From NCBI RefSeq assembly GCF_003668575.1, contig NZ_RCVZ01000013.1:1-64000 (forward strand): a DNA stretch of 64,000 bases, in the 5' to 3' direction. Positions 5,884-63,792 of the stretch are shown here, piece by piece. Made by a program: the position numbers and the translations under genes. Each line of letters starts with the position of its first letter. Position 1 is the first letter of the stretch. Under the pieces are notes generated by a model. It ran no database searches. It was not told the origin of the DNA and was given only the letters and a program-made list of their open reading frames with translations. This DNA is from Falsibacillus albus (GTDB taxonomy: Bacteria; Bacillota; Bacilli; Bacillales; DSM-25281).

Positions 5884-5886
5884 AAG

Positions 5887-6239
5887 TTAACACTGGCAAA
5901 TCATCAAATGGTTGCCATCAGGATCCTTGAAGTTGAACCAATGGTTATGTTCGATTTCAGTTGTCAGTTCTACATTTTTACTTTTCATATACTCATATGC
6001 TTGTTCAATGTTGTTCGTATTCAAATGAAACGGCGGGGCTTTGAATATATGGTCCTCTGAATAAATCTTGCTGTCCAATACGATTCCCGTCCCGTTCATG
6101 GGGACGATATATAAATGACCGAATAAGATTTCACCATCTGCTGGCAAACCTAATATGTCACAATACCAATTGCGGGCTTCTTCAATGTTGCTCACAGGAA
6201 TAAACACAGTACCGATTTGATTTAGAATAGGGTTCATGG
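5887..6239 (-). CDS. VOC (glyoxalase/bleomycin resistance fold) protein
   Basis: A 117-aa single vicinal-oxygen-chelate module. It begins NQIGTVFIPVSNIEEARNWY, has the LGLPADGEILFGHLYIVPMNG beta strands and ends with HNHWFNFKDPDGNHLMICQC, where DPDGN and the final acidic/His positions are typical metal-site surroundings. A start at ATG 6239 follows TTGGAGGTAACC; the longer reading from a TTG would begin inside that site. One module per chain means it works as a dimer. Members include glyoxalase I, fosfomycin and bleomycin resistance proteins and dioxygenases; the sequence does not decide between them. Transcription ends at the hairpin at 5849-5883. Confidence 0.85.
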
Positions 6240-6334
6240 TTACCTCCAAATTTTTCTATATACTTTTATTCGATATACAGTAAAAAATCCCCTTCTTGTG
6301 GAACTATCCACTTTTGTGTCCAAAAAATAACGGT

Positions 6335-6565
6335 TCTTTTCGTAAGATTGTTGCTAATTATCAAGGTTGTGCAAGGTGGATTTCCGCGGAAGGATGCTCG
6401 CTTTCCAGGGGACCTCACACGAAGTGAGGTCGTTCGATGTTGGTACAGGACGTGCCAGACTTAATCGTACATCCGCCTTACCTCTCCTCGCTCCGCTGCG
6501 GGGTCTCCCCTGTCCCGCTTCCCCCCCCCCTGGAGTCTCGCACCTTCCGCTCCAATCAACACAAT
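6335..6565. repeat. Interspersed GC-rich repeat, copy A
   Basis: The stretch begins with TTTTCGTAAGATTGTTGCTA and a TCAAGGTTGT block, continues through CTCGCTTTCC and CTCCGCTGCGGGGTCTC, and ends CGCACCTTCCGCTCCAATCA. A close relative lies at 15705-15895, and partial left ends occur at 7705 and 25585. It fills most of the gap between genes and has no convincing ORF. It looks like a non-coding miniature mobile or REP-like element that is common between Bacillaceae genes. Confidence 0.7.
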
Positions 6566-6644
6566 AAGATGAAAATCAGACAAGCAAATTAAAAATCTTT
6601 ACCTTTTTAAAACATATATCTAAACAAAATAGCCATTCGTCAGT

Positions 6645-7592
6645 TTATTCATGAATATTCAGCAATTTGATTAATTTAATGATTTTTTCATCGTCACCTG
6701 GATCAACATACACTAGTTTCGTATTTTTAATAATATCTGTGTAGAACTCTTTGCCTGCAGGGTATTTGCCATCCCAACGTAAAGGAACGTTGTATACATT
6801 TATTGTCCCATCTCCATTGCCGCTATATGTCACTGAACCATCGACCAGACGGGAACCGGCTAACTGGATGACATCTTCCGGGTAGACAGCACTTGTTTCA
6901 TCATCCGGGTTGAGTGGCTTCCCCGCTTTCATATGCCAAACATTCAATTCATCGAGCTCTTGATTGGGTCCTAGCTGCAGCCATACACGGGCGTATTCAA
7001 TTTGCGCGGCGGAATATTGTGATAGCGTATTTGTCTTTTCTTTCTTTCCTGAATTTGAGTCACTATTTTCATAATCTTGTATTAAGGTCACAGAGAAATC
7101 ACGATCAGTTGATACCCAATTGATCGAATCGATATGTATCTTAGGGTTGATTTTAGGGAGTTCATCCATGATTTGTTTAGCCGTTTCCGAAATGGCTTCC
7201 GTTTCTTTATAAACCTTTTTATAACCATTTCGAAACATATTATCGATTTCTTGGCTATACTCTTTCGTTTCCGGGAGAATGTTTACTGTATAGTTTGTCC
7301 TTCCCGTGTCTTCATTTTCCCAAGAGTCCGTTTGATAATGAGTGTTTTCAATCTGGTAATTTTCATTCAAATATTCCTCTATGTCAAAGTCTTCTGTCCG
7401 ATTCTGCTTTCCTTTTTCAGTCTTGGTATCACTTTCGGATGATTGGTTTTCTGCATCATTTTCTTCTGTGCTGTCTGTCATGGAGGCGCCAGAAGCATCG
7501 GGTTGTTCAACACGTTCATCAGGGGGCTTCGAACAAGCTCCCAGCAATATGATTAAGATTGCTAGTATACTAACATTTGAAATTTTTCTCAT
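6645..7592 (-). CDS. Lipoprotein of unknown function
   Basis: The 315-aa precursor has a short basic start (MRKIS), a hydrophobic segment and the lipobox LLGAC with Cys 20, so it should be lipidated and held at the outer face of the membrane. Residues about 22-70 are a polar, Ser/Glu/Asp/Asn-rich linker. The following 240 residues form a soluble domain with WENEDTGRTNYTVNILPETK and RVWLQLGPNQELDELNVWHM. The start ATG 7592 is preceded by AAGGTAG. It is a single-gene unit flanked by two interspersed repeats. I do not recognise the domain; germination and sporulation lipoproteins have a comparable layout, but no motif fixes that. Confidence 0.75.
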   Translation of the reverse strand: MRKISNVSILAILIILLGACSKPPDERVEQPDASGASMTDSTEENDAENQSSESDTKTEKGKQNRTEDFDIEEYLNENYQIENTHYQTDSWENEDTGRTNYTVNILPETKEYSQEIDNMFRNGYKKVYKETEAISETAKQIMDELPKINPKIHIDSINWVSTDRDFSVTLIQDYENSDSNSGKKEKTNTLSQYSAAQIEYARVWLQLGPNQELDELNVWHMKAGKPLNPDDETSAVYPEDVIQLAGSRLVDGSVTYSGNGDGTINVYNVPLRWDGKYPAGKEFYTDIIKNTKLVYVDPGDDEKIIKLIKLLNIHE

Positions 7593-45799: not shown

Positions 45800-45834
45800 A
45801 AAAAAAGGTGCCTCTTCTATATGAAAAGGCATCT
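45800..45834 (-). terminator. Terminator overlapping the end of the DUF2357 gene
   Basis: In minus order ATGCCTTTT and AAGAGGCAC pair, and TTTTTTT follows. The stem starts within the last codons of the gene. Confidence 0.65.
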
Positions 45835-48309
45835 ACCTAAAAATGATTTTCTAATGATCTTAAACGCTTGTGTGGGCTGCTTTTGGAAAGTTTCAAATGG
45901 GACTGCGTTGATGAGATCATCATGCTGCATGATCTCGATTTGTTCATTTTCCTCATTGAATAACACTTCAACATGTCCAATTTGATACGCCTGGATTTTT
46001 CGAGCGTGATCTATTGTGACTTCATCCAAGCTTGTTCTCACTTTACTTTTGAGTCTTCGCAGCATCCGCCACAGCTTAATTTCTTCAGCGGACTTCATAA
46101 ACAGTTCAGGAAGTTCCTCTGCTTGCACCAGTAACGGCATGGTCGTGATCAAATATGACTGAATGCCGTATCCGACTGGCTGGATGACGTTCTTCAATGT
46201 CTTCCAGCTTTCGACCTCAAACCTTACTAGATCCCCCTCCACTTTTACGTCAAGGATCCTTCCGTAAAATTGAATCCCATTGGCTGCACCTGTTGCATCA
46301 CTCACATGGCTTGTGACATATAATGCAGCATAGACACTTCCTTGCCAGCCTCTTTTCAATTGGGCAGCTTCCACGTCAATATATTTGAATCTCTTAAACT
46401 TTTGATACATATCCTCATCATTCACCGTCGAGACGAGAACCTTTTCATCCAACGATGACTGCCAGTGAGTCCAGGCACCGGCAGGCAATACCCCTTCCTC
46501 TTGCAGGTCCTCTGGGCTGCTTTCGATTAGCCGCTCTACCAACTGTTCAACAAGCATCGTTGAATTCGGCAGAAACGGAAGCCCGCCAATATTCACTTCA
46601 TCGATGCTTTTATAAAAAGGATGTTCACGATACGCCTCTTCCTCGTTCCATGGAAAAAGAACATATGCCCCGAACGCATACCGCTCAAAATGACCACGGT
46701 CATGATGCTTCTGTACTAAAGCATCCCGGTACCGATGCATCGTATTAATATCCTCTTCCATCGGCCCAACCCGCTCAGCATTACTTTCCTCGGGGTTCTT
46801 GTTAAAGTCAAAATCGATCCGGTATTTGGCATCAAAGACATAGTGATAGCGGTTGTGGGCATGCTTCTTCTCGACTTCGAGCATAATGTCAGGTTTTTGC
46901 GTAACGGTTGGGAGCTGACCGTCTCTTTTTTGAAAAGATAAAATGATCCGCTCATCGGTTTCAGGATGCAGAAAGACTTGTTTTGCTTGTGCGGTTTGGT
47001 CCAAATTCACAAACAGCGACCCATGGCTGATTTTCACAACATCCTGGTATTGTGGGATATAGTTTGCCCGAAGTATCTGGCCCATTTTGAGATACGTCCA
47101 ATACTCATAAAGGGTCGCAACATCCTTCACAGACATTTTATAGAGCTCTCCTTCAAGCATCAGTCCTCTTGTCACAATGAGATAGATTTTATAGGCTTCC
47201 CTGTAGCCCATTTTCCGCTGAATGACCATGCTTGTCGCTGTCCGGTCCAACCCACTGATTGATTTCCAAAAAGGTTTGTTTAAAGAAGTTTTCAAGGCAG
47301 CCTGCATCAATATGGTCTTTCCTAATAAATCGTCATCTGCTTTCTTTTCGTATCGACCTGGCTGACGTAGTTTCTCTTCCAAATCCTTCAGTTTATGATG
47401 GAGCCGCTCCATCATCCACTTCACAAATCGGTTTTCAAGCGTATCATACGTTATCGTTTTTCGAGCCGTTAGTCCTTTTACAGGAAAGACGGGTTTGTCG
47501 TGCAGAACTACTCCATTTTTCGTTTCTACAAAAAGCTGGGGATTGCGGCGCAAATACTTTCTCCCTTTTTGATCAAGCTTCTTGATCCGCTCACCTCTCA
47601 CCAGCTGATGCTCTGTCAACAGCTGATGGTGCGGCTGCTCCTCAATGCGTTGAATGGATCGAGTAAAACTGCCGATATAAAATTCAATTAATCGATAGAA
47701 CTCTGCTAAGGACGGATTTTCCGACAAATGACTCGAGGCGCCCAGGAACGTTTTCTTGATAAAATGAAACGCCAAATTATACACTTCATCATTTACTTCT
47801 TCCAAAAGCTTATGATAATCATCCTTATAGCTTAACTTCGTCGGGAAAATTTCAAGCTTCACTTCCAGTAAAACCTTCTTATCGTGTTTAACCGAAAAGC
47901 TCGTATACCCGACTTCATTCATAAATTGAAGGTTCCCCATGAGAATCGGATGCTTGCCTCTTCCAACAGGTTCGACTGCTTTTCGAAGCCCTGGGTGTTC
48001 ATGATAAAAGCTCAGTATTTTGTCATGTTTAGGCGAAATCACGATCTGATAGATGCCATTTTCAAAGAAGATGGGAGAGAGCGGGTGGTCATCAAGTCCC
48101 CTCAGCGAATCGTGCTCCACGTCATAAAGCTCAACGGACTCGACTGCTTCTCCCTCATAGGTAAAAGTCATTTTCTCTTTTTCAATGGATGTATGCTTTC
48201 TATATTGGGAAAGACTTTGAAATCTTGGATTATATGGAGTCCCTTTGATAAAAAGGGTAAAATCCTCGGTTTCTATAAATAAAAGCTCCTTCGTTTCAGA
48301 TCCATTCAT
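45817..48309 (-). CDS. DUF2357 protein with PD-(D/E)XK nuclease (McrC-like partner)
   Basis: The 830-aa protein pairs with the McrB-like ATPase directly upstream (stop and start four bases apart). The N-terminal part is beta-rich; FHFIKKTFLGASSHLSENPS and ARKTITYDTLENRFVKWMME belong to the DUF2357 region. A nuclease core lies near residues 485-515: PDIMLEVEKKHAHNRYHYVF leading to DAKYRID, i.e. P-D ... D-A-K, the PD-(D/E)XK signature of DUF524/McrC-type restriction subunits. By analogy with McrBC it should cut modified DNA when the AAA partner translocates. The C-terminal 250 residues hold no motif I recognise. Confidence 0.8.
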   Translation of the reverse strand: MNGSETKELLFIETEDFTLFIKGTPYNPRFQSLSQYRKHTSIEKEKMTFTYEGEAVESVELYDVEHDSLRGLDDHPLSPIFFENGIYQIVISPKHDKILSFYHEHPGLRKAVEPVGRGKHPILMGNLQFMNEVGYTSFSVKHDKKVLLEVKLEIFPTKLSYKDDYHKLLEEVNDEVYNLAFHFIKKTFLGASSHLSENPSLAEFYRLIEFYIGSFTRSIQRIEEQPHHQLLTEHQLVRGERIKKLDQKGRKYLRRNPQLFVETKNGVVLHDKPVFPVKGLTARKTITYDTLENRFVKWMMERLHHKLKDLEEKLRQPGRYEKKADDDLLGKTILMQAALKTSLNKPFWKSISGLDRTATSMVIQRKMGYREAYKIYLIVTRGLMLEGELYKMSVKDVATLYEYWTYLKMGQILRANYIPQYQDVVKISHGSLFVNLDQTAQAKQVFLHPETDERIILSFQKRDGQLPTVTQKPDIMLEVEKKHAHNRYHYVFDAKYRIDFDFNKNPEESNAERVGPMEEDINTMHRYRDALVQKHHDRGHFERYAFGAYVLFPWNEEEAYREHPFYKSIDEVNIGGLPFLPNSTMLVEQLVERLIESSPEDLQEEGVLPAGAWTHWQSSLDEKVLVSTVNDEDMYQKFKRFKYIDVEAAQLKRGWQGSVYAALYVTSHVSDATGAANGIQFYGRILDVKVEGDLVRFEVESWKTLKNVIQPVGYGIQSYLITTMPLLVQAEELPELFMKSAEEIKLWRMLRRLKSKVRTSLDEVTIDHARKIQAYQIGHVEVLFNEENEQIEIMQHDDLINAVPFETFQKQPTQAFKIIRKSFLGRCLFI

Positions 48310-48312
48310 TTT

Positions 48313-50841
48313 TTAACTACCCCAGAAGGAAGCAAAGCCATCGCGAACAATGTTGGAAATCATGCCGGATAACTTCTTCGCAGACTTCTTAAAACGGGCT
48401 TCACGAATAATCGATTCATCATGCTGCTCGCTCCAATCATGGCTCGTACAAAAACGGAATAGCTTTTTTAAAGCATCTTCTGTCTTCATATCGTTCCCTG
48501 TTAAACGCGGCAGCACCTTCTGAAGCAGCTGATAGTCAAAGGCATCATCCTGACTCATGAGCTTCCCTTCATCGTTATAAATCATATAAAAGCAAATCTC
48601 ATCTCGAACCCGGTAGCCAAAATGTGCTTTAATCGGTTCCAGCGTTTTATTGACCTCTATCAGAAGTTCAGTGACCTCTCTTATTAACGATTCATAATTA
48701 GAAAAGGCATCCTTCAAATTCAGAAACCGCCCAGCCAGCTGATCGTTCGAAACAGAAATAGCTTCTACCTCAGAATCTTTTGTTAAGAAACCAAAATGAT
48801 CCAACACTACCTCATTGTACTCAATCGTATTGGCCCGATCTAACACCTTTGGACTGAATGGATAAGTGGTTTCGTCCATATTGACGGTACCAATCACATA
48901 AAGATTATCCCTTAAGTACAACGTTCCAAACTCTTCACGATCCACAATTGGCGCTGACAAAAATTCGCCATCAACACGTTTCCGACTCTCCATAATGCTT
49001 AATAAATCACTAAAGTAGTACTCCACACGTGCAAGGTTCATCTCATCCAGCAACACAAAATATGGTTTATGCAGATTCTCCGGCTTATTCGCTTCTATTA
49101 AAACTTTCGTAAAAGGACCTGGCTGGAACACTCCACTTATATTCTCATAGCCTATTAAATCAGAACCATCGCTCCAGTCAGGACGAACGGGGATTAAGGC
49201 AAACTGACCGTTTTCTGCTGTGGCGCCAAGGCTTTCAGCAAATAACTCTACAATTTTTGTTTTACCTGTTCCAGAAATACCGGATAGAATGACAAATGGT
49301 TTGGTTTTTAAAGAAAGATATAAATTGAAAATTTCTTTTCGTTCGTAATAGAATCCTTTGTTTGAAATGTATGAGTGGATATGATCAACTATCTCACTAT
49401 CACTCTTATTACTTGTTACGTCTGGTTCATCTGTGTTTTCACCCGAATACTCTATGTAACGTTCATAATAACTCATCATTTGCTCCAAATCGTTTATTAG
49501 CTCCTCTTCAGAAGGAAAAGAATCTCTTTGGTATTCGATGTAGGCTGCAGTTGATAAAGCATAACCTTTTGCTTTCGATGACTCTCCTAAATACAACTCA
49601 TCGTCCTTTTTCACTTTAGGGATTGTTTCAACATTATCCCGGATTTCCTGTTTAATTCTGAGCATATCTTCTCGAGAGGTTTCAGTTACGCCTTGCGCTA
49701 GAGTAAGATATAGCCTTTTCATATCTTCGCTAAATAAATAGACAAGATAATAGCCTCTTTGAGTAGAGGTCGTAATCTCTCTATTCATGATCGCAATCCA
49801 CGGAACAGAGGCCCAATTTCCTTGTCCAACTGAAGCTGTTACAGAATAATCGTTATCCATGTAATCCAACTTATTAAATTCTGCTGGAACTTCTTTACGA
49901 ACGTAGCTCCCTAGCTGATTTCCCCCAAATGGTTGTGTTCTTGCATTAAGGTAATTATCCATTATGTATAAGAGCTTTTCACGAATCATTGTATTCTCCT
50001 TTGAAATGGTCAGAGATATTAACGGATTTAACTGGTTATCGATTAGGTCAACTTCTTGAAGCCAATTGAGAAGATGGTTCGTTCTCTCTTTAGCCACACT
50101 CTCTACCATTAAGTTTTCTCCAAGAGAATTCCTAACGATCAATTTCCCCATTTCAACTAAAGCCTGCTTCTTTTCTTCAGGGGTAGCTTGTTTTAAAATC
50201 GCTAGTAATTCCAGTGCCATTTTAAAATATTCCTTAGTTAACATCTGTTCCCTGAATACTTCAAGTTTGTCATCTGCGCGTATGTATTCCATTAATAGCT
50301 CTTCATTCCGATGTTGATTATGATCAATGAAGCCAAGCAGCCTTAAGTCTTGCCGAGCTCTAGACTTTATTCGGTATTCATTTCCTTCAACCTGTTTACT
50401 TAAGCTTTCAGGTTGATATTTCCCTTCAGTTATTTCTTGAAGAAAATTCATCACCTTATCTAGAGGCTGGTTTGGCAGATCGTCTGTCTTAAATTCAATT
50501 AATGAAATAGCTGTTCTTTGTTGTTTTTCCACCGCTCTCCCAAATGGTAGTTGAGAGAAAAAAGACATAACAAATGATGATCTTCCTTTTGTCTGTATAA
50601 AATCTTCGGCAGTAGCAATTCGTTTCTCTAAAAATTCATTCCAAGCCTCTTGAAGGAAATCAAAAGAAATGAATTCTAAAGAATCATTTTTTTCTCCTCG
50701 TTGAAACTTATCTAAAGAAGATTCTGTTTCTACATAAATCCCGTCTTCATCCATTTTTCTTATATAGTTTTTCTTTTTTAAAGTTAACGTTTCGATTACT
50801 TTATTTTGTTTTGCTAGCGCCTTTAATATTTCTAATATCAT
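48313..50841 (-). CDS. McrB-like AAA+ ATPase with DUF3578-like region
   Basis: The 842-aa motor of a type IV restriction pair. Walker A is GISGTGKTK (521-529), Walker B YFVLLDEMNLARVEYYFSDL and the McrB signature VIGTVNMDETTYPFSPKVLD with the arginine finger region after it. These AAA+ proteins use GTP or ATP; the N-x-x-D form MNLARVE is typical of the McrB subgroup. The middle part GQGNWASVPWIAIMNREITT with GYYLVYLFSEDMKRLYLTL matches DUF3578, which is thought to bind DNA or the substrate. The N-terminal 300 residues are helical and unassigned. ATG 50841 follows TTAGGAGATAG. Transcription probably starts in the 400-bp gap upstream. Confidence 0.85.
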   Translation of the reverse strand: MILEILKALAKQNKVIETLTLKKKNYIRKMDEDGIYVETESSLDKFQRGEKNDSLEFISFDFLQEAWNEFLEKRIATAEDFIQTKGRSSFVMSFFSQLPFGRAVEKQQRTAISLIEFKTDDLPNQPLDKVMNFLQEITEGKYQPESLSKQVEGNEYRIKSRARQDLRLLGFIDHNQHRNEELLMEYIRADDKLEVFREQMLTKEYFKMALELLAILKQATPEEKKQALVEMGKLIVRNSLGENLMVESVAKERTNHLLNWLQEVDLIDNQLNPLISLTISKENTMIREKLLYIMDNYLNARTQPFGGNQLGSYVRKEVPAEFNKLDYMDNDYSVTASVGQGNWASVPWIAIMNREITTSTQRGYYLVYLFSEDMKRLYLTLAQGVTETSREDMLRIKQEIRDNVETIPKVKKDDELYLGESSKAKGYALSTAAYIEYQRDSFPSEEELINDLEQMMSYYERYIEYSGENTDEPDVTSNKSDSEIVDHIHSYISNKGFYYERKEIFNLYLSLKTKPFVILSGISGTGKTKIVELFAESLGATAENGQFALIPVRPDWSDGSDLIGYENISGVFQPGPFTKVLIEANKPENLHKPYFVLLDEMNLARVEYYFSDLLSIMESRKRVDGEFLSAPIVDREEFGTLYLRDNLYVIGTVNMDETTYPFSPKVLDRANTIEYNEVVLDHFGFLTKDSEVEAISVSNDQLAGRFLNLKDAFSNYESLIREVTELLIEVNKTLEPIKAHFGYRVRDEICFYMIYNDEGKLMSQDDAFDYQLLQKVLPRLTGNDMKTEDALKKLFRFCTSHDWSEQHDESIIREARFKKSAKKLSGMISNIVRDGFASFWGS

Positions 50842-51249
50842 GGCTATCTCCTAAATCTTTGTTTCTACTAGTATATCAAATAATTTCCAATCGATAAATT
50901 TCATGTGGTTTAAGGACATATTTAAATTAGTTTTAAAAAACAAGAAAGCACATCTCAATAGATGTACTCACGATGTCAAGAAACGCTCGACAGCCATTTT
51001 TTCACTAACTTCACTATTTCACTGCATTAATTTCATATATTACAGATTTCAATGAAAAAGATTGTAGATTCAATGTTAAAGCCAAAAAAAGAAATGCAAA
51101 TAGAAGTAGAATTTATTTTTATATTGAACTCATTTCTCAAGATCATTGAAAAATGCCTGACCCTTTGCACAGTAATGGACTAGGGTCAGGCATCAGTATG
51201 TATTTCGAATTAAAATAAAACTATACAGACCCACCTGCTGCTTTTTCCA
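50842..51249. other. Gap between the two restriction/SMC operons
   Basis: The gap holds the terminator at 51146-51193 and presumably the promoter of the McrB-like gene. No ORF with a site and family resemblance is present. Confidence 0.6.
51146..51193 (-). terminator. Terminator of the four-gene SMC/sigma-like operon
   Basis: ATGCCTGACCCT and AGGGTCAGGCAT form a perfect 12-bp stem; TTTTT follows in minus order. It separates this operon from the McrB unit. Confidence 0.8.
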
Positions 51250-51684
51250 TCAAAATGGTACTTCATCCTTCACCCTGAGCGTATATTCCATGAGATAAAG
51301 CTGAATGTCATGGTCTTCTTTAGTGAAGTGGTACTGGCCGTCTGTTAGAGAAACTAGATCCTGGAGGTCATTTTCCAAGAGTTGGGTGAGACCGGCGTGG
51401 GCATATTGCTCCATAAGTTGGGTCATTTCCTTGTAAGAGCCCAGCTGACCGTTTTCTTTGTAGTAGACGGATTTTATCATAGTCCATTCGTGTTCTGAAA
51501 GGGTTACGGCACGGCACAGTTCGTGTTTTTGAGGGACCAGGCTTTTTTGATTTTCTTTTTTGCCGATCATGGCACAAAAGGTGAAGAATTGGCTATTTTG
51601 CTGAAACAGCGTTTTTCCCATGTGGTGATAGAGCGGGAAGTGCTGTTCATCCACATAGATTCGCAGCTGACCGATATCGGACAT
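51250..51684 (-). CDS. Small protein of the SMC/sigma-like operon
   Basis: A 144-aa acidic protein with ATG 51684 after AAGGGAGGAATTTG, one base from the stop of the SMC-like gene. FFTFCAMIGKKENQKSLVPQ followed by KHELCRAVTLSEHEWTMIKS and ending LQLYLMEYTLR-like (QLYLMEYTLRVKDEVPF) is helical. The A-x-x-I-G-K pattern and layout recall small Dnd-system-associated proteins (type 4) and the middle components of ABC three-component systems, which sit beside SMC-like ATPases; this resemblance is weak. No enzymatic motif is visible. Probably a subunit of the ATPase complex. Confidence 0.7.
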   Translation of the reverse strand: MSDIGQLRIYVDEQHFPLYHHMGKTLFQQNSQFFTFCAMIGKKENQKSLVPQKHELCRAVTLSEHEWTMIKSVYYKENGQLGSYKEMTQLMEQYAHAGLTQLLENDLQDLVSLTDGQYHFTKEDHDIQLYLMEYTLRVKDEVPF

Positions 51685-51685
51685 C

Positions 51686-53680
51686 TCAAATTCCTCCCTT
51701 CATAGCAGGCTGCATTTCACGTATCATGGTGACACCAGGTTCGGTTGATTCAAGCTCATAGTATTTGCCGATGGCATCAGACTCTTCGAAAATTGCTTTT
51801 TCCTCTTCTCCAAACTCCCGATCTGTAACGAGAAGAATCCACTGGGAGCAAATCTGTGGAAGATATTCAATCAAGTTTCTTTGATGCATTTCAGACAGAC
51901 GTCCAAACGGTGTATCCATGAGAAGCGGCATTTCAAGCGCCTTGTCTCCACCCGCTGTCTGGGCGAGGGCGGTAATAAAGCTTAAGGAAAGCACTTGTCT
52001 CTGCCCCTGTGAGATATTCGCCAGAAACGGCTGATCGAAAGCATTGTATACCTCTATTGAAAAGTCTTTTTGAATACCGACCCTTTTAATCATAGATTGT
52101 CCAGCTGCATCAAGCAGGTAGTTTAGATTCTGCTGGGTGGCTGATTCCAGCTCTTCAATCATTTCTGCTTCAAATCTTTTGATCAATCCGTCCATGGATG
52201 CAACTGAGCGCTCTAAAATGTCATGCTTATCGAGCAGCTGATCACGTACTCCGCTTTTTCGTTTCAGATCCTTTAGCTGATTATTTAAAGTGCCGATCTC
52301 TTCTTCAATTGTAGCTAGATTTTCCTTAAAACGTTTCATTAAACCCTCTGTTTCAGCAATGGCTTTGATCAGACTGGTGCGTTGATCATTCAATGACTGA
52401 ACGTGTCCCTCAGAGGAGGAGGATAGCCTTTTGTTTAGCTGCTCAAGCTTCACCTGGCTTTCTTCCTTTTCGTATTGAAGAGCTCTTATTTCAGTCAGCT
52501 GATAGTCGATGGTGCTCTGTCTTTTGCTCAAGTAAGAGAAAAGCGAACGGATGGAGGTTTGAAGCTCATGGGCAGAACGGTTTTCTTCAAAATCAGCTAT
52601 TGAGCTTTTCAGCTGTTCAAGCTGATAATACTGTTCGTTATTTCTCTCTAAATCAGTACCGCAAATACACCTCATATCCTCAATTAGCTTTGCTACAAAG
52701 TCTGAAGAAATACCGGACAGATTATCAGCGGAAAGCTCATTTTTCAGACTGGACTGAACGTGATATAAATGATCCTCCCCTGCAAGCATCGGAAGGTATT
52801 CGTTATAAATTTTCAGGTGTTCTGTTTTATCCGTGATCAGGACATCCGCTTTTTTAATCTGCTCTTCCAGCTCATCCCGTTCACGAAACAGGACCTTCAG
52901 CGTTTCATATTCCTTTAGCTGCTGGTCAATAAGAGTCAGGTCGTTCTCCATCTTGACGAGAAGCTTTGCTTTTGCTTTCTCGTCCTCTTGAATGTTTAAT
53001 TGTTCCAGTTCCTTTTTCTCAAGCTCCATTAGCGCTTTCTTGTATTCACCCTTTGAAAACTGTCCAAGCTCTTTTTTTGATTTTTTCATAAGAAGTCGCA
53101 GGACATCTCGGGATTTTAACACTTCATCAATTTTAAGAAGATTTTTAATCCCCATAGAAATTTCATCTTTTTGCTGTCTTGAGACCCTTGTGAGCCGCTC
53201 GATTCGTTCTCCATCAAAAAAGAAATAATGCTTTACGCGTTCATCGACAATTTCCTGCAGCTTTAGAAGGATATCCTTTGATGTCGTCCATTCTTTTCCG
53301 GACTCCAAATGCACGAGCTTTTGATCTTTCAACTGCTCCTTCACCTGTGAGCCGATCTGGCCGGCAACAAGTGAGCGTGATATTTCATAGGTCTCCTGAT
53401 CATGGAGAAACTTTACGGTTACTCGTGCTTCAGTCTGGCTTGGGTTTTCCTTCAATGCCTTCAGATTCACCAGCGTGATCTCTGCTTCATCAGAATCCTG
53501 CATGAGCTTCAGGTCACCAAATAAAGCAAACATGATCGCACGGTAGATCCCTGTTTTCCCCCGCCCGTTGTCACCAAGGATCACTGTTACGATTCTTCCT
53601 TCATCTGAATAGGCAAATTCAAGCTGCTGGGAGCCGTAATATTGTCTGAAGTTCTGCAGCTCGAGCGCTTGAATAATCAT
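51686..53680 (-). CDS. DndD-like SMC/Rad50-type ATPase
   Basis: A 664-aa ATPase of the SMC/RecF group. IQALELQNFRQYYGSQQLEF opens it, Walker A is LGDNGRGKTGIYRAIMFALF (residues 35-54), and VKHYFFFDGERIERL is the typical segment of DndD-type proteins. A coiled coil spans about residues 185-480, interrupted by a zinc-hook-like RCICGTDLER (CxC near 338). The C-terminal head has the signature SQGQRQVLSLSFITALAQ and Walker B LLMDTPFGRLSEMHQRNLIE. ATG 53680 overlaps the 61-aa gene by four bases. DndD joins DNA phosphorothioation, but no dndB, C or E is present here, so the role must differ; DNA-end or plasmid/phage recognition is plausible. Confidence 0.85.
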   Translation of the reverse strand: MIIQALELQNFRQYYGSQQLEFAYSDEGRIVTVILGDNGRGKTGIYRAIMFALFGDLKLMQDSDEAEITLVNLKALKENPSQTEARVTVKFLHDQETYEISRSLVAGQIGSQVKEQLKDQKLVHLESGKEWTTSKDILLKLQEIVDERVKHYFFFDGERIERLTRVSRQQKDEISMGIKNLLKIDEVLKSRDVLRLLMKKSKKELGQFSKGEYKKALMELEKKELEQLNIQEDEKAKAKLLVKMENDLTLIDQQLKEYETLKVLFRERDELEEQIKKADVLITDKTEHLKIYNEYLPMLAGEDHLYHVQSSLKNELSADNLSGISSDFVAKLIEDMRCICGTDLERNNEQYYQLEQLKSSIADFEENRSAHELQTSIRSLFSYLSKRQSTIDYQLTEIRALQYEKEESQVKLEQLNKRLSSSSEGHVQSLNDQRTSLIKAIAETEGLMKRFKENLATIEEEIGTLNNQLKDLKRKSGVRDQLLDKHDILERSVASMDGLIKRFEAEMIEELESATQQNLNYLLDAAGQSMIKRVGIQKDFSIEVYNAFDQPFLANISQGQRQVLSLSFITALAQTAGGDKALEMPLLMDTPFGRLSEMHQRNLIEYLPQICSQWILLVTDREFGEEEKAIFEESDAIGKYYELESTEPGVTMIREMQPAMKGGI

Positions 53681-53862
53681 TCTTCATTACCTCCCCTGCT
53701 TTTCAGTTTCCGTTCTAACAGCCGGTCGATTTTTTTCGAGTGTGCCTCCGGTGAAATCGGGCTGGCACTTACCTGCAAAATGGTTTCCATGATTAATTCA
53801 TGAACGATAGGATCTTCCTCTTCCAATAAAGAGGAAACCCGCGCGATCAGTTTAATGCTCAT
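53677..53862 (-). CDS. 61-aa protein coupled to the SMC-like ATPase
   Basis: MSIKLIARVSSLLEEEDPIV and ILQVSASPISPEAHSKKIDR with a basic end RLLERKLKSRGGNEE. It overlaps both neighbours by four bases (ATGA), with GGAGTGAAG before its ATG. Small size and double coupling suggest a structural subunit or translation adaptor for the large protein and the ATPase. No family recognised. Confidence 0.65.
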   Translation of the reverse strand: MSIKLIARVSSLLEEEDPIVHELIMETILQVSASPISPEAHSKKIDRLLERKLKSRGGNEE

Positions 53863-56800
53863 ATGTTTACTTCACTCCAGTCTCGTAAAAGAATTTCATC
53901 GCCGTCGATTTCGAATGGAGCGGACTGATTCTTCAATGCCTCCTCCACCTCAACGAGCAGCTTTCCTTCATTTGAATATTGAATTGCAGCTAGATACTGG
54001 CGCAGGTCCTTTATTCTCACCGAACCATCGAACTCTGTTTTCAACAGAAGCCCGATAAAGTCTGTATTGGTGCTAATGGAAGAGCTCTTTGGCGTCAAAA
54101 TCGCACCGTAGGATCCGATCAGATTCCATTGTCCGGATTTTTTCAGAATATCTCCCAACAGCTCTGCACCCCAGTCAATGTCATTAGCCAGCTCAGGAAG
54201 TACATCCTCCTTTACAAGCTCCTCAAGAAAGACATATTCACGTCCCCTTAACGCTGACTCTTCACAGAAAAGCTGCTCTGCTGCCTTTAGAATCCGCTGC
54301 TCCAGCTCCGCATTATAGCCGATCGTTTGTTTGTGGATGTACTCCCCGTACTGCCCTTTTGAGTAATACAGAATTTCCTTTGAATTCAATAAAACAATAT
54401 CAAGAATGCTGTCATTTTCTCCGAACACATCCGTGATCCACTGGCTGACCTCCTCCCGTGGAACAATATCTTGCTGCTCCTGGATATACTCCTCAATCAG
54501 CCCTTTAGCAGAAAACTGATCAATCGTTGCATCCTTTGTGAGAATATAGGGATATCTCGGCATCCGGAAACTGTCTCTCTCCCTGTCCTTCAGAATCGCA
54601 TGGAGAAGCTGCTTACTTTTTATCCCAAGATCCCTGATCAGCAACTCATTTTGTTCGAAAAAGGAATGAATAAGCGTAATAGGGGATTCCTCCAGCTTAT
54701 TCCGAATCTGTGCGGTAACAAAGTCCAAATCAGAGGATGAAACATTGGAATAAAGAGATAAAAGCGTATATTCTCCCCGTCCGCAGCTAACGATTTCTTC
54801 GTTTGTGGTCAGATTGTATTCAAGCGTGAACCTCTTCCAGCCTTTTTTTTCAACAAACTGCTCGTACATCTCCTGATAGGTAGCCAGTCCACCTCGGTCC
54901 CGAATAAATTCCTTAATATGATCCGCATTCATCTGACGATCTGTACCCTCCGGATAAATATGCGGGAATTTCTGAAGATCCAGACGGGTATCCGAATATT
55001 TTCTCATCAGTGAATAAAGACCATATTCACTCGGAATGTTCTGCTCCAAAGCTTCCTTTTTCACTCTTTCATATAGCTTAAGAACATGAATCGGGCCGTC
55101 CTTTTCCATTATCTGAACCGCAATTTCCTGCGTGTCTTTAATAAAGGACTCCTCTGCCGTAACGAAGCGGTTATGAATATACCTTCCACGATCCCATAAA
55201 ATAAACGTTTCAGACAAATCTGCACGCGTCGCGATCGAATAAAAAGCCCGCTCTCCTTCAAATTCCCCGGGCATAAAATCATTGGCTTTATTAATCAGCT
55301 CCTGCTCCTGTTTATATACGTCGACCCCTTCAGGATATTGAAGCATAACCATTTCAACGACATCCTTTTTACGGCTGGTGGATAGAATCCCCTGCCCCTC
55401 CGCAACCCAGGTGATCTCGGGTTTAGCTACTGCCGAAACGAAGGAATCCGGAAGGGCGTCGTCCTCTGCTTTCTCCTCACAGAAATGCGTTAGATCCTCC
55501 TGACTAATCACATGCAGGTGAAAAGCTTCGCGGAATTCACGGACTATGGATTTTTCAAGGTCTTCAAGAGCATCTCTGCCAAGCTTTGTTATATAAGTTA
55601 AGCCGCCCCGCGTAAACACTTCGTACCCTAGCACTTCAAGCCCTTTTGCCATGAGGTAATCCTTAAAGGAAGAAAGGTCGAGATCCTTCAATTCAGTTAT
55701 TGCAAGTGAATCCCGTGAGGCAGCAAAAAACGCGCGAATTACTGGCTCCACTTTTCCGGCTAAACGTTGATCGCCCTTTGCAATAATTTGACGGATCCGT
55801 TCACGGGTTAGGCCGGCTTCCTGACCAAGTGCTTCAAGAGTTAAGTGCTGACCTTCAAGATCTGCATCAAAACGATTTTTCGTAAGCTCCAAGTACCTCG
55901 GCTGGATTTTTTCCGCCTTTGCATTTTCCTCACTTTCAGTAATTCTGCCAATCCACTCCTGGCATTCCTTCATTAAAAAAAGGTAATACTCAGAAGGAGG
56001 TAACGATGCAATCTCTGCGAGGTTAAGTTCCCGTTGAATGATAGCCGGTAGCTTTTCAACAATAGCCTTCACTTTTCCAATGCCGACACCCTTAATTTCC
56101 TTCAATTTCTTTAAATCAGCAGGCAGATCCTTAAGACTTTCTATCCCGTTCTGCTTCATATTTCCAATCGCTTTTTCCGCTCCGGGGAAGTCCTGACTGT
56201 CGAGCATGATTTCTTTGAGCTCCTCAGGAATTACGATTATTTGCCCTTCAAAAAACACCTTTCGTTCACCGTCAGTTTCTTCCACAGGTTGTATCACTAA
56301 TTGACGTTCGGCAGGGAGCTGACTCCAGAACTTATCGACTGTTCTTTCACCGACACCCTTCAGCTTTTCATGAATCCCATCCAGCGGAAAATCAATATCC
56401 TTCAGCTTATCAACACCGATCGATTGAAATTTATTAATCAGGTGCTCACAGCCTTCAACACCGATTTCATTCAGCGGCGCTTCAGCCACATTTAAGGAAA
56501 TGGACAACTGTTCTCCTTTGTAAATGAGAGAGTGCTCCCCATGATCAGAGATCTCTTTCTTTTCAGCCTCTGAATTTGCTACTTCCGCGTTGTATTTAAT
56601 CTTTTTCAGCCAATCCTCATTATCCGTACCTGTCCACCAGTTAAGTGAGGAAAGTAGCAGCAGATCCAGCTCCTGTACAAGTCTAATATTCCGTTCAGCC
56701 AGCCCCTCACTTACCGCAAACGGGGCCACGTCACGGATCTTCAGTCCGGATGCATGTTTTATACGGACCATACAATCTTTTTCTAGAGAAGGACCAGGCT

Positions 56801-57962
56801 GAAAAGCCGCCATTCTGTCTTGAAAACGGAATCCTAGAAAATAAAGCTCCTGCATCACAGTAAAAAATGACTCTTTATCAACTTTATACAGCTGTCTCAG
56901 CCGGTCTTCATTCAGACTTGAAAAAGTCTGACATCCCTCCAGCCCTTCAGCGGATATAAAAAAGTTCTCTAGGGACATCCCTGCCAGATGTACAGGATGA
57001 TTAATCTGTCCGGCGGACTGCCAGAAATCCTTCGGGACTTCCCTGATCTCTGCAACAGGTGTTGCAAGCTTTCTTTCTGGCACATGAACTTTAGGAACAG
57101 GCTGATTCTGCTTATAATCGTCCGGCTGTTCATGAAAGCTTTTATTCATTAAAAACCAGGCTGGCTCCTGATTAGTCGAGCGTGCACCATTTTTAGAGAA
57201 GCGGAAATAAAGCTTATGCTCCTTTAGGGCAAAAAGCTTCTCCTTCAATGACCAATCACCAACCACCCATAAGGCACCCTTCTTATCCCGTTTATCTATA
57301 TATTCCAGGCCCTCCTGATTTAGATACTGAAACAGAAAGAACGATTCCTTTTCTTCTCCCGCTTCTCCCTCAGTGACTTGATCTTCCCGAAAAGCGAGCC
57401 GCTCTTTTTCCTCTTTTATAGCATCGAGCTGCTGTTGAATTTCATCTCGCATTTTGTCGATCTGCTGCATGCCCTTTTCAAAAAACGGCTTCATCAGCTC
57501 ACTGATCTGCTCCTCTGACAAAGATGGATTTTCGCTTTTCTCAGGAGCACGCAACTTATAAACCGGTGCCTCAAAGTCATAGTTCACATACACCTGCATA
57601 TACCAGACACTGATATCAAACAAATAACGGTGCGCCTTCATCCCATCCTCCAATGACGGTGGAGTGAGATCATGGGCTGCCTTATTGCCCATCTTGCGCA
57701 CCCATTCAAGCTTTATGTAAATATCCTCTTCAATCGCATTTTGACGATACAGCTTATGAATGCGCTCCGAATGCTTCAGTGGATACACATCCTCAATGCC
57801 CTCGTCTTTACTTACCAACTTAATCAAATTTTCTGTATACAGCCTTGCCTGAATCATCACAGATTGAGGTTGGGAAAACAGCATACTCTCCAGATCCTCT
57901 GCTAGCGCCAACAAATCTTTCGAGACCACCTCAATAAACTCAAACAAACTCTTCCCTCTCAT
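53859..57962 (-). CDS. 1367-aa DUF4145/HhH/sigma-like/winged-helix protein (candidate new defence sensor)
   Basis: First and largest gene of the operon; ATG 57962 lies after GGGAGGCTTC. Domain order: (1) residues about 10-135, a DUF4145/HEPN-like helical bundle with EWVRKMGNKAAHDLTPPSLE, like the N-terminus of HsdR; (2) a Glu/Lys-rich helix then a beta domain with LFALKEHKLYFRFSKNG; (3) helix-hairpin-helix segments, the clearest being LKEIKGVGIGKVKAIVEKL near 630, with KLKGVGERTVDKFW earlier; (4) a sigma-70 region-4-like helix-turn-helix, HLTLEALGQEAGLTRERIRQ near 720; (5) a long tail of repeated winged-helix-like units (PIHVLKLYERVKKEALEQNI; LATYQEMYEQFVEKKGWKRF). No nuclease, helicase or Walker motif is visible. 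It would bind DNA in several ways and probably recruits the SMC-like ATPase. I know no named system with this set. Confidence 0.75.
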   Translation of the reverse strand: MRGKSLFEFIEVVSKDLLALAEDLESMLFSQPQSVMIQARLYTENLIKLVSKDEGIEDVYPLKHSERIHKLYRQNAIEEDIYIKLEWVRKMGNKAAHDLTPPSLEDGMKAHRYLFDISVWYMQVYVNYDFEAPVYKLRAPEKSENPSLSEEQISELMKPFFEKGMQQIDKMRDEIQQQLDAIKEEKERLAFREDQVTEGEAGEEKESFFLFQYLNQEGLEYIDKRDKKGALWVVGDWSLKEKLFALKEHKLYFRFSKNGARSTNQEPAWFLMNKSFHEQPDDYKQNQPVPKVHVPERKLATPVAEIREVPKDFWQSAGQINHPVHLAGMSLENFFISAEGLEGCQTFSSLNEDRLRQLYKVDKESFFTVMQELYFLGFRFQDRMAAFQPGPSLEKDCMVRIKHASGLKIRDVAPFAVSEGLAERNIRLVQELDLLLLSSLNWWTGTDNEDWLKKIKYNAEVANSEAEKKEISDHGEHSLIYKGEQLSISLNVAEAPLNEIGVEGCEHLINKFQSIGVDKLKDIDFPLDGIHEKLKGVGERTVDKFWSQLPAERQLVIQPVEETDGERKVFFEGQIIVIPEELKEIMLDSQDFPGAEKAIGNMKQNGIESLKDLPADLKKLKEIKGVGIGKVKAIVEKLPAIIQRELNLAEIASLPPSEYYLFLMKECQEWIGRITESEENAKAEKIQPRYLELTKNRFDADLEGQHLTLEALGQEAGLTRERIRQIIAKGDQRLAGKVEPVIRAFFAASRDSLAITELKDLDLSSFKDYLMAKGLEVLGYEVFTRGGLTYITKLGRDALEDLEKSIVREFREAFHLHVISQEDLTHFCEEKAEDDALPDSFVSAVAKPEITWVAEGQGILSTSRKKDVVEMVMLQYPEGVDVYKQEQELINKANDFMPGEFEGERAFYSIATRADLSETFILWDRGRYIHNRFVTAEESFIKDTQEIAVQIMEKDGPIHVLKLYERVKKEALEQNIPSEYGLYSLMRKYSDTRLDLQKFPHIYPEGTDRQMNADHIKEFIRDRGGLATYQEMYEQFVEKKGWKRFTLEYNLTTNEEIVSCGRGEYTLLSLYSNVSSSDLDFVTAQIRNKLEESPITLIHSFFEQNELLIRDLGIKSKQLLHAILKDRERDSFRMPRYPYILTKDATIDQFSAKGLIEEYIQEQQDIVPREEVSQWITDVFGENDSILDIVLLNSKEILYYSKGQYGEYIHKQTIGYNAELEQRILKAAEQLFCEESALRGREYVFLEELVKEDVLPELANDIDWGAELLGDILKKSGQWNLIGSYGAILTPKSSSISTNTDFIGLLLKTEFDGSVRIKDLRQYLAAIQYSNEGKLLVEVEEALKNQSAPFEIDGDEILLRDWSEVNI

Positions 57963-58138
57963 CAAACGAAGCCTCCCACTTGCATTACATTTGTTACATC
58001 ATCTATACAACTATGTAACAACTATTTTAACAAAAAAGTGGGGTTTTGACATTTGAGGTTAGGAGTTTGCGTGGTTAAACAACATGTTTTACTTATGATG
58101 CGGTTCACCGTGACACTTCTTTCGGTAAACTTTATTTA

Positions 58139-59050
58139 CTATTCTATTTTATTGAACTCCTTGAGAAGGTCAAATGTCCTTTGAAGTTCATCTTCAGTTG
58201 TTTTTCTATAAACCAGTTGTCCCATAGCTAACATTACAAAGTTAAACTTATCAAAAGTATGGTTAGTATATTTTCTATTTCCACTCCAGATATCCTTCAT
58301 GAAGTTATTCATTTGCAAATGATAATAGGTAGGCATTTTCAAATCATTTACCTCGTAAAAATAGTAATTATAATCGGCTTGTCCATAGTTAAGAAATTTA
58401 AGATGTTCTTCCTCACATTCATTACAAGAGATCGCAATTTCCTCTACTACATTACTTGTTTTATTCTGAATAAAAATAATTTTTGCATCTTCACTGTGTT
58501 CTACTAGTTCCTTTGAACAATTTTCACAATATAAGAATTGTGGGTCTTTTTTAGGAATGAAATTCGACAAGGTTGTATTTCTTATTAGAATACAATATTT
58601 TTCCCAGGATTTTGGGAAGTGTCTTTGAAATAATATCCTTCCAGCACTACTATTTATTAATTCTCTTTCAATCCTTGCACTATTAAATAGATCAAACTCA
58701 TCTATTGATTTTGAATCTACTAACTCGTTAAGTTTGGTAAGTAGAGGCGACGATATAGAAGCAGAATAAAAACTTAAAAAACCATTACATTTCTTAGCTT
58801 TAACTCTATCTGTTATATCTGTTTCATCTGATCTATTCACAGAATTTGAAGAATTTCTATGAGCAAAATGCTTGCAACTTACTAACCATAAGAAATCACT
58901 CACTTTATCTTTTACAATAAGATCCTTTCCTCCATCTGGACCAATAGAAGGTGGATCAATTAGTTCAAATTTTTCACTTAAAAATTCTTGTGCAAATAGT
59001 TCCCAACTTTCTAAGTCATTCTTTATTTCTTTAAAATCTATAATACCCAT
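58139..59050 (-). CDS. Mrr-like restriction endonuclease-fold protein
   Basis: A 303-aa protein with an N-terminal Mrr-type nuclease domain: ESWELFAQEFLSEKFELIDP, then SIGPDGGKDLIV (Asp of PD-(D/E)XK) and LWLVSCKHFAHR (x-x-C-K in place of E-x-K, as in several Mrr relatives). A second part holds a Cys-rich segment (FLYCENCSKELVEHSEDA ... ISCNECEEEHL), two CxxC pairs that can bind zinc. ATG 59050 follows AAAGGAGAATTGG. It probably cuts modified or foreign DNA. It is separated from the DUF262 gene by a terminator and is a single-gene unit. Confidence 0.75.
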   Translation of the reverse strand: MGIIDFKEIKNDLESWELFAQEFLSEKFELIDPPSIGPDGGKDLIVKDKVSDFLWLVSCKHFAHRNSSNSVNRSDETDITDRVKAKKCNGFLSFYSASISSPLLTKLNELVDSKSIDEFDLFNSARIERELINSSAGRILFQRHFPKSWEKYCILIRNTTLSNFIPKKDPQFLYCENCSKELVEHSEDAKIIFIQNKTSNVVEEIAISCNECEEEHLKFLNYGQADYNYYFYEVNDLKMPTYYHLQMNNFMKDIWSGNRKYTNHTFDKFNFVMLAMGQLVYRKTTEDELQRTFDLLKEFNKIE

Positions 59051-59111
59051 AAATTCCAATTCTCCTTTATACAATAAAAACTGAACTTTGTTATATTTCA
59101 CTATTATTAAT

Positions 59112-62182: not shown

Positions 62183-63792
62183 TTATAAAACTAAAGTAAA
62201 ATTAAAAGAGGACGGATCTTCAACTGAAGATCCGTCCTCTTTTTCATCCAATATGTGATTTTTTGATTTTCCATCAAAGTGTAATATTATCGATTCAACT
62301 TTCCTTTCTTTACTTAATACAATTTTATCAACCACTAAATTTAAGATTGTTTTTTTCTGATCATGATTAGCATTTCTAATTATCTCGTTTAAATTACTCA
62401 TTAAATTCTTAACTACTTGGAATTCAATAGGGTCAGAATTATTTAATCGGAGTTTTTCTTGAATTGATTCTTTATGTTTCCTTTTGATTTCAATATCTTC
62501 TGAAATAGACCCAAGCCTCTTCGAAAGGTCTTCTTTCGTGATCATACCGTCTTCAAATAGTTCAAACCACTTACTCTTTTTATTATCATATCCACGAATC
62601 TCCCTATCAATATGCTGTAGTTGTTCCTCTAAAGGTTTTATCGTGTGCCTTCTTTTTTCATTTAAATTATTTACAATGTCGCTTAATAATTTTTCGTTTA
62701 ATAGATTACTCTGTATCTTATTAAATACAATTTTTTCTGTTTCATCTGCCTTAACACCATTTGACCTACAAGCTGCTGTACCCTTATTTCTCCAAGCTCC
62801 ACAATGATAATATCTGTGAAGTATATAACTTCCATCCTTATGCTTTTTCTTAACCCTTCCTGCAACCATAGACGAGCCACAGGCTGGGCACTTTAATAAG
62901 CCAGTTAAGGATAAGAACCACTATATACCCTATTGGGCTTATGGGATCTTTGACTATACAACTTCTGAACCTTTTCCCATAAATCCACAGTGATTATTGC
63001 ATCATGCCCTCCATCCACAATAATGGGATTTTTATTTGTTCCCTTTCTCCTCTTCTCACTCCAATTTTCCCTGCGATTATATCTAATTTTTCCAATATAT
63101 ATAGGATTCATCAGAATTTCTTTTACTGCGTTTATTGAAAACATATTTCCCTTTTTTGATTTATAACCAAGCTTATTAATATGATTTGTAAGGCTCTTTA
63201 ATCCCCTCCCTTCGGAATATAGTTTAAATATTTCTCTAACAATGAATGCTTCTTCTTCTACTACCTCTAACCTTGTTTTAGTATCATCTTTGTTACTCTT
63301 GGCACTTATATATCCTAATACCTGACCTCCATTCCACTTTCCTAATCTTGCTCTTTGTTTCATTCCCATTTTCACGTTATCTACTATGGTCTCCCTTTCG
63401 AACTCACCAATAGATGCTAATACATTCATCATTAGTCTTCCTTGTGGAGTTGTTGTGTCAAAGTGTTCAGAGCAACTTTTAAAATTCACATTGCTTTTGT
63501 TTAACTCTTCTACTATCTTAAGTAAATCTAAGTGATTCCTTGCTAGTCTGTTTGTTTTCCAGACCCATACCTCATCAAATTTCTTTTCTTTTGCATCCTT
63601 AAGAAGCTGCTGTAGTTGTAACCTCTTCTCCATTGATTTACCGCTGATGCCACGATCAATATAGTTAGAAATTACTTGCTTACCATCCAACTCAATCCTT
63701 TTTCTTACCGTATCAATTTGTGCATCAATAGAATATCCTTCTTCTGCCTGTTCAGCCGTAGAAACCCTTGCATATATAACAGCTCTTATCAT
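62183..63792 (-). pseudogene. Large serine recombinase, single-base frameshift
   Basis: Two ORFs form one gene of about 535 codons. The first has the resolvase domain with nucleophile Ser in YARVSTAEQAEEGYSIDAQ, GISGKSMEKR, WVWKTNRLARN and ASIGEFERETIVDNVKMGMK, then the recombinase domain. It ends SHKPNRVYSGSYP and a TAA near 62905. The second frame continues LTGLLKCPACGSSMVAGRVK with the zinc ribbon and the helical coiled-coil tail. The break is one missing T in CCTTAACTGG (should read CCTTTAACTGG for PLTGLL). The element's integrase is therefore inactive unless this is a sequencing error. ATG 63792 overlaps the stop of the 34-aa ORF. Confidence 0.85.
62204..62243 (-). terminator. Hairpin within the 3' end of the recombinase gene
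   Basis: AGAGGACGGATCTTCA and TGAAGATCCGTCCTCT pair perfectly, followed in minus order by TTTTAATTTT. It lies in the last codons of the recombinase reading frame and is a terminator candidate. Confidence 0.6.

Follow-up and report, generated by a model that had tools for sequence, protein, structure and literature searches.

A four-gene cassette of Falsibacillus albus related to the PbeABCD defence system, with a HEPN-bearing multidomain protein in the place of PbeA

A PbeABCD-related cassette in Falsibacillus albus

We analysed 64,000 nt of the Falsibacillus albus genome (GCF_003668575.1, contig NZ_RCVZ01000013.1, forward-strand positions 1-64,000), a stretch referred to in full as the window, and focused on a cassette of four minus-strand genes at 57962-53859, 53862-53677, 53680-51686 and 51684-51250. 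Sequence comparison indicated that this cassette is almost certainly a variant of PbeABCD, a system made up of PbeA (a nuclease-helicase of the phospholipase D (PLD)/HKD kind), the 66-amino-acid (aa) PbeB, PbeC with an AAA domain (pfam13476) and the 152-aa PbeD (Xiong 2019, PMC6459918). Genes 3 and 4 correspond to PbeC and PbeD, gene 2 appears to correspond to PbeB, and gene 1, a 1367-aa multidomain protein that we call BIG, stands in the PbeA position. A sequence-only reading of the window had outlined the same four genes, and both ATGA overlaps (53859-53862 and 53677-53680) and the one-base gap at 51685 are present in the sequence. Its statement that no named system has this composition stood for gene 1 and failed for genes 2 to 4. 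A published system matching all four genes, which it had named as its refutation, was not found; three of the four match. Likewise, its proposal of an undescribed defence system is borne out in that the four genes form a conserved unit in a defence island, but three of them belong to a known system. A role in defence is very probable. Our fullest statement, that the cassette is a variant of the CxC-ABC-ATPase/DndE (PbeABCD) type in which PbeA has been lost and a HEPN-bearing DNA reader has taken its place, with HEPN as the effector, has about an even chance of being right as a whole.

Gene 3 and the two small proteins

Gene 3 (664 aa, 51686-53680) holds YFFFDGERIE (residue 152) and SQGQRQVLSLSF (residue 557), the segments from which it had been called DndD-type. 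Walker A lies at residue 36, the CxC zinc hook at 338-340 within CICG (338-341), the signature at 557 and Walker B at 586. In PADLOC, its best DndD match (1.2e-58) was far weaker than that to the PbeC model PDLC02730 (5.3e-162), and the protein scored 152.2 bits against the NCBIfam DndD model TIGR03185, under the cut-off of 245.85. A survey found the CxC hook in 29 of 29 Pbe-type ATPases and in none of the five DndD rows. The relation to DndD holds, but PADLOC, the CxC survey and the ATPase tree (see below) place the protein on the CxC/PbeC branch. Judged from its sequence, gene 3 belongs with PbeC among the ABC ATPases that have a CxC zinc hook, and is not DndD. A DndD modification gene was rejected for this locus because the CxC hook is present, the score lies under the DndD cut-off and the genome contains no dndC, in line with the earlier remark that dnd modification genes are missing.

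The small proteins were compared with PbeB and PbeD. The 61-aa gene 2 (53677-53862, minus strand) had no PADLOC match and appears to occupy the PbeB slot by its size and place; one small protein from the five-gene loci described below gave a match at 4e-4 in the PbeB test. In 13 further loci inspected singly, the same slot held an M-starting open reading frame (ORF) of 55-66 aa, taken as the longest ORF in about 200 bases, and identity to the window's protein was 28-59% (nine sequences). The 144-aa gene 4 (51250-51684, minus strand) matched no PADLOC model and only weakly TIGR04062 (18.5 bits, cut-off 74.25). Profile comparison by hhalign paired it, with a probability of 99.7%, with the protein that ends the five-gene loci, which in one such locus matched PADLOC PbeD at 3.6e-4. 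Its likeness to canonical PbeD was weak (33%, E 4.5e-4), and no likeness to DndE proper was seen (0.4%). Identity among the last proteins of the cassettes was 29-53% to that of the window (12 sequences). By these profile matches, gene 4 is a PbeD-like (DndE-cognate) protein.

Domains of the large protein

The domains that had been read from the sequence of BIG (53859-57962, minus strand), namely DUF4145/HEPN, helix-hairpin-helix (HhH), a sigma-70 region-4 helix-turn-helix (HTH) and tandem winged helices, were borne out by Pfam, by relatives and by predicted structure. In the window's protein, Pfam matched DUF4145 (9.2e-06) and Sigma70_r4 (1.3e-05), both past their cut-offs. Near-full-length homologues were found at 12 other loci, with that of locus L063 in pieces. 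DUF4145 was detected in 11 of 12 four-gene BIG proteins and Sigma70_r4 in 12 of 12, and identity to the window's BIG was 29-43% (11 sequences). No HKD nuclease or SF2 (superfamily 2) helicase of the PbeA kind was found in BIG in the Pfam and PADLOC scans.

The N-terminal domain (residues 8-135, 57558-57941, minus strand) is predicted from both sequence and model to have the HEPN fold. The best structural match of the AlphaFold model was 2hsb (VIA-align Z 13.8, root-mean-square deviation 2.0, 112 aligned residues). E44, K48, R89, N93 and H97 do not vary among the 12 members. The active-site features given for HEPN are Rx4-6H, E-x3-[KR] in helix 2, and R and H after helix 3 (Anantharaman 2013, PMC3710099); E44-x3-K48 fits the second of these, and R and H have their invariant counterparts in R89 and H97. 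Among the DUF4145 fusions given in that paper are ones to restriction enzymes, to helicases and to 'SIGMA-HTH'. A joining of HEPN with a sigma-type HTH had thus been noted before, though not, in the part consulted, within this operon. The same HEPN family also stands at the N-terminal end of a DptF, which was the only BIG relative in plasmid records; searches of viral contigs and phage records gave none. Together with its occurrence in separate 316-398-aa proteins, this indicates that HEPN is a mobile module. Such proteins were seen at L013 (7867-8817), L014 (7144-8340) and L015 (7051-8004), where HEPN is 41-56% identical to that of BIG; they share an uncharacterised C-terminal domain, and two of the three loci look, by reading, unlike defence islands.

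Behind HEPN follow a predicted long helix (residues 150-192, 57387-57515; predicted local distance difference test (pLDDT) 54-71 mostly, 37 at its end) and a small alpha/beta domain with a DKR...G.LW motif (residues 205-275, 57138-57350), recognised by its recurrence elsewhere and a weak match to the ZorC C-terminal end (0.0013). The recurrences were at the C-terminal end of 1050-1712-aa proteins at L085 (983-4135), L086 (4802-9940) and L087 (1760-6856), of which the one scanned, that of L086, is a superfamily 1 helicase with an MTES_1575 nuclease. The HhH region (residues about 500-640, 56043-56465) gave weak Pfam matches in the window's protein alone (E 0.19-0.2) and contains conserved VG/GxG motifs. 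Among seven HEPN-less relatives scanned, two (L046 and L084) matched RNA_pol_A_CTD at this region (1.7e-06 and 6.1e-10), and HHH_5 matched there as well. The sigma-70 region-4-like HTH (residues 697-735, 55758-55874) has an invariant TRER[IV]RQ. The tandem winged-helix array (residues about 760-1367, 53862-55685) was modelled by AlphaFold with a mean pLDDT of 87.2 and a predicted template modelling score (pTM) of 0.49; its best VIA-align rows were single winged-helix domains (Rpa2, Z 9.7; ZBP1, Z 9.4), and the best Foldseek row was UFL1 (4.9e-05). All of these segments are on the minus strand. The model used in the fold search of residues 1-655 had a pTM of 0.31 and HEPN rows came out on top, so that residues 140-655 were barely probed by fold.

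Conservation of the four-gene arrangement

Among 397 evenly drawn genomes of the order, 21 had a PbeC/DndD-like match at E <= 1e-20. By neighbourhood, these loci comprised six of four genes, five of five genes, nine with PbeA and PbeC (the canonical type) and one (in genome G021) without PbeA or BIG. The five-gene locus consists of a HEPN-less BIG relative, PbeA, a small protein, PbeC and PbeD; in one of the five sampled (L043) the BIG relative is represented by no more than a piece of 519 aa. No BIG body occurred within the fetched stretch of any canonical locus, and four of the nine hold separate HEPN-bearing proteins. A scan of genome contigs added eight four-gene loci, from Bacillus, Lysinibacillus, Halobacillus, Pullulanibacillus, Gracilibacillus and Virgibacillus. 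Counting L061 and G197 (L039) as one genome, as they appear to be, we found the four-gene order in the window and 12 other genomes, 13 different genomes in all, which indicates that the arrangement is not due to chance. One of these loci, L063 of Gracilibacillus, is frameshifted, with BIG and the ATPase in several frames; it was excluded from the BIG alignments and the tree, and its small and last proteins were kept in the alignments. In the closest pair (L041 and L042), the ratio of nonsynonymous to synonymous substitution rates was about 0.15 for the large protein and about 0.09 for the ATPase.

Since most loci had been found through the ATPase, we also searched from the side of BIG. Its C-terminal part was matched in eight genomes (G000, G037, G054 and G084 in searches of 101 genomes; G721, G422, G632 and G576 in searches of 398), and PbeC was adjacent in seven of them. 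The remaining matches covered the HEPN, small-domain or HhH parts only. The exception was G632, where L083 encodes a 1054-aa HEPN-less BIG relative (3624-6788, minus strand) with no PbeA, PbeC or PbeD found in the 14 kb covered. Thus the expectation that the four genes are kept together holds for the four-gene set, and a HEPN-less relative of BIG does occur apart from the ATPase.

In the ATPase tree (34 sequences), the 12 four-gene rows formed one clade (100/99), and together with eight five-gene rows they formed a larger one (100/99). The nine canonical PbeC proteins were separate (97/92), and the five DndD rows, our choice of outgroup, also stood apart. The five-gene rows do not group together: four attach to the clade of the four-gene rows (94/94, just under the tool's star, with their order unresolved), and in three the letter composition is odd. 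With the DndD outgroup, the simplest course is that BIG was gained first, and that HEPN was then gained and PbeA lost. DUF4145 went with the absence of PbeA, being found in none of the seven whole five-gene large proteins scanned, against 11 of 12 in four-gene loci.

PbeA and dndC in the carrier genomes

The whole genomes of the carriers were searched for PbeA and for dndC. At E <= 1e-30, the PbeA model was found in one of the 13 four-gene genomes and in both positive controls. The whole genome from which the window comes had no match at this threshold, and a supply of PbeA from elsewhere in it was therefore rejected. DndC was detected in one of 14 four-gene genomes (one of 13 with L061 counted once), in none of the five five-gene genomes tested, which left out G721, G422 and G576, and in six of nine canonical ones. 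The difference between six of nine canonical and one of 18 four- and five-gene genomes gave p 0.0017 in a Fisher test, which ignores relatedness. The single four-gene carrier of dndC, which is also the one with the PbeA match, is Bacillus sp. EB01 (G397). Its dndC and a PbeA-like gene are separated by 7.6 kb and, if contig coordinates agree, the four-gene locus lies about 0.6 Mb away from dndC. SspB/DUF4007 was not found in the window genome and was present in one of the 13 four-gene genomes (G188). Solitary Pbe loci are common in print (320 of 553 PbeAC in PMC6459918), so the missing dndC alone does not exclude membership of the Pbe family.

Several PbeA-like and helicase proteins were seen along the way. 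Those of about 455 aa at L048 (7460-8821), L049 (9968-11338) and in G397 (C1:2333047-2334354) start at the SF2 helicase, have no HKD nuclease part and have dndC nearby. Proteins of the PLD-ResIII-helicase kind occur near Pbe-type cassettes at L042 (874-3693), L060 (12794-15244), L041 (18-1826, cut) and L044 (46-2655); DUF3427 is present in those of L041 and L042, and the L044 protein was assigned without a Pfam scan. Two PbeAC loci without dndC, L054 (17079-17924) and L055 (11420-14422), have, by reading, PP-loop-like proteins among their neighbours; these carry SGGxxS close to their beginning and may represent another modification module.

Genomic neighbourhood and flanking signals

The earlier placement of the cassette among restriction-type genes was confirmed: McrBC-type, GmrSD-type, type IIG-like and Gabija genes occur in this genome. 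The island in the window runs from a McrBC-type pair (45817-50841) through the cassette to a 320-aa protein (58139-59101, minus strand) that resembles Mrr_cat below threshold (E 0.1) and, weakly, a zinc finger. Next come a GmrSD/HEC-05-type protein, RadC and a split recombinase; a type IIG-like pair and Gabija lie beyond the window on the same contig. The recombinase, of the serine type and adjoining RadC, is split into two ORFs of 295 and 228 aa (62183-63792, minus strand); a disabled mobile element may carry or adjoin the island, or the split may be an assembly error. Elsewhere, the cassette adjoins Zorya (L039, L042), type I restriction-modification (R-M) genes (L011, L040, L062, L063) or SIR2 and PglZ (L064), and at L011 and L040 it follows WYL-type regulators. 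By reading, no defence neighbour was made out at L057, L058 (a contig end) and L059. Behind PbeD, the five-gene locus L081 has a radical S-adenosylmethionine protein (Pfam), with proteins of similar beginning in L082 and L084, and also a GHKL/Hsp90-type ATPase with a look-alike in L082.

The single terminator proposed for the operon end is present as a strong hairpin at 51152-51194 (minus strand) followed by TTTTT. Its folding energy was -24.1 kcal/mol (z -4.1), and none of 200 shuffles was equally stable; the consensus terminator scan, limited to loops of 8, missed it. Consensus promoter and terminator scans did no better than on shuffles. Upstream of gene 1 lies a 9-bp perfect inverted repeat (57991-58021, assigned to neither strand). 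No similar repeat was found in seven other upstream regions scanned, so its reading as a possible operator is weak.

Proposed mechanism and competing explanations

We propose that the zinc-hooked, Rad50-like ATPase and the PbeD-like subunit would scan or loop DNA, that the HhH/sigma-4/winged-helix part of BIG would read some feature of the invading DNA, and that on recognition HEPN would act, most likely as a ribonuclease that stops the infected cell or the phage transcripts. The small protein may restrain or couple the complex. The scanning step follows the model for ATPase plus DndE-type subunit of Rakesh (2024, PMC10853773), where a HEPN joined to DndF is also interpreted as a co-effector. 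That HEPN is a catalytic effector is conceivable, at slightly under even chances. A tentative evolutionary account is an effector exchange, in which the reader first joined a Pbe system, giving the five-gene form, and then captured HEPN while PbeA was dropped, turning modification-free DNA sensing into RNA cleavage. This account would explain why HEPN is present in the clade that lost PbeA; HEPN may also have a non-catalytic role.

Several observations weigh against this proposal. The spacing of R89 and H97, seven residues, departs from Rx4-6H, and the motif is therefore no proof of catalysis; nor need a HEPN domain be catalytic. The best Foldseek match for HEPN had an E-value of only 0.046 (probability 1.00), and helical bundles can attain a Z of 13 through shape alone. 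Residues 300-500 of BIG have no domain assignment, and the 316-398-aa HEPN proteins exist outside the cassette. An SF2 helicase outside the PbeA family lies in the flanks of three of the 13 four-gene loci (L041, L042 and L060); those of L042 and L060 carry a PLD nuclease domain, and that of L041 is cut at the end of the contig stretch. A nuclease-helicase partner is therefore possible at these loci. Finally, PbeABCD stopped viral replication with no visible DNA cleavage (Xiong 2019, PMC6459918), so an effector domain may be needless.

The last point also favours the strongest alternative, in which the cassette blocks invader replication by ATP-driven looping or entrapment of DNA and HEPN serves only for dimerisation or docking. 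Zinc-hooked ABC ATPases handle and tether DNA, and the departing R-to-H spacing of HEPN agrees with a non-catalytic part. In PMC6459918, deletion of any of pbeA-D impaired protection against virus SNJ1, and pbeBCD without pbeA kept low-level resistance, which indicates that the retained core can act without PbeA. Against it, the five HEPN residues are invariant although the proteins are only 29-43% identical, and HEPN was added in the very clade that lost PbeA. We consider this alternative unlikely, though a serious one.

A second alternative holds that the cassette is still gated by DNA modification, with a different mark in each host. The window genome had no match to PF00145, PF01555 or PF02086 and only weak PF02384 matches. 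Against the reading that it has no DNA methylase, PF07669, with which three of the 13 genomes were searched, brought out a type IIG-like protein of 1437 aa; together with a 252-aa methylase-like gene it occupies positions 68737-73801 of this contig, 10.8 kb upstream of the cassette. A self mark is therefore possible in this host. Furthermore, the methylase families searched left none of the 13 genomes without a match, and modification genes lie within 10 kb of 155 of the 320 solitary PbeAC loci in PMC6459918. On the other side, no methylase family recurs beside the cassette at all loci, and no clear DNA-methylase family is common to the 13 carriers. PF00145 was matched in three, PF01555 in nine (some weakly) and PF02086 in one. 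PF02384 was matched in all 13, at more than 100 bits in ten and at 50-62 bits in the window genome (G000), G197 and G397, these last being set aside. Gating by modification is improbable.

The PF02384 matches bear on a third alternative, in which type I methylase-specificity complexes are bound by the HEPN part of BIG, which resembles HsdR, and their methylation state is the self mark. BIG residues 4-195 match the N-terminal end of an HsdR family (NCBIfam NF008521, 1.6e-22, 79.4 bits, far below the cut-off of 729), and L011, L040, L062 and L063 each carry a type I methylase downstream of the cassette and on its strand. However, the best PF02384 match reaches only 50-62 bits in three of the 13 carriers, and the frames concerned, of about 330-360 aa, are of a kind found in other carriers and probably belong to a housekeeping gene. 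Partnership with type I R-M as a general rule was rejected on these scores, and docking of this kind is quite improbable. Least of all do we expect BIG to be a sigma-like transcription regulator of the locus or of invaders: sigma region 4, the alpha-CTD-like (C-terminal-domain-like) HhH of relatives and the many HTH units would suit that role, but sigma region 2 is absent from BIG in the Pfam scans, and the position of BIG in the operon that it shares with the ATPase is constant.

In PMC6459918 no DNA cleavage by PbeABCD was seen, and yet PbeA looks nuclease-like. That a form lacking PbeA, and in most genomes phosphorothioation genes too, occurs in nature directs attention to the small protein, the CxC ATPase and PbeD as the core. 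If HEPN is the effector, a zinc-hooked DNA-scanning ATPase would be linked to RNA cleavage. System rules that demand PbeA would probably miss the cassette, to judge from the single models scanned here.

Comparison with known systems

Searches of the open literature, whose scope took in neither the figures and supplementary files of PMC10853773 nor the 2020 ABC-ATPase paper in its reference list, returned no description of the four-gene variant; those on DndD-like defence and on DUF4145 with sigma and antiphage terms found nothing. Among known systems, MZA includes MzaA, a defence protein that is likewise large and has an HTH of the sigma-region-4 kind, but the likeness to BIG stays within about 50 residues and no other MZA gene was matched among the four proteins. 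HsdR of type I R-M shares with BIG an N-terminal HEPN and helix, but no restriction endonuclease or SF2 helicase domain was found in BIG. DndFGH (DptFGH) resembles the cassette in that a DptF has the HEPN family of BIG at its N-terminal end, whereas no DptF, DptG or DptH core is present among the four proteins. The five-gene Pbe loci are much closer: they share the HhH/sigma-4/winged-helix part, a PbeC of the same larger clade and the PbeD-like protein, and differ in keeping PbeA and in having large proteins without DUF4145. PbeABCD itself, re-read as a CxC ABC-ATPase/DndE system with PbeA as HKD-SF2 and PbeB as a small disordered protein (PMC10853773), has the same order and sizes of B, C and D, an AAA_23 ATPase with the CxC hook that fits the PbeC model, a defence context and many solitary examples without dnd genes. 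The cassette differs from it in that 12 of the 13 four-gene carriers have no dndC, and in the HEPN-HhH-sigma4-winged-helix protein that stands where PbeA (HKD-SF2) is expected. Genes 2 to 4 thus appear to be of a known kind, and the new element would be gene 1 in place of PbeA.

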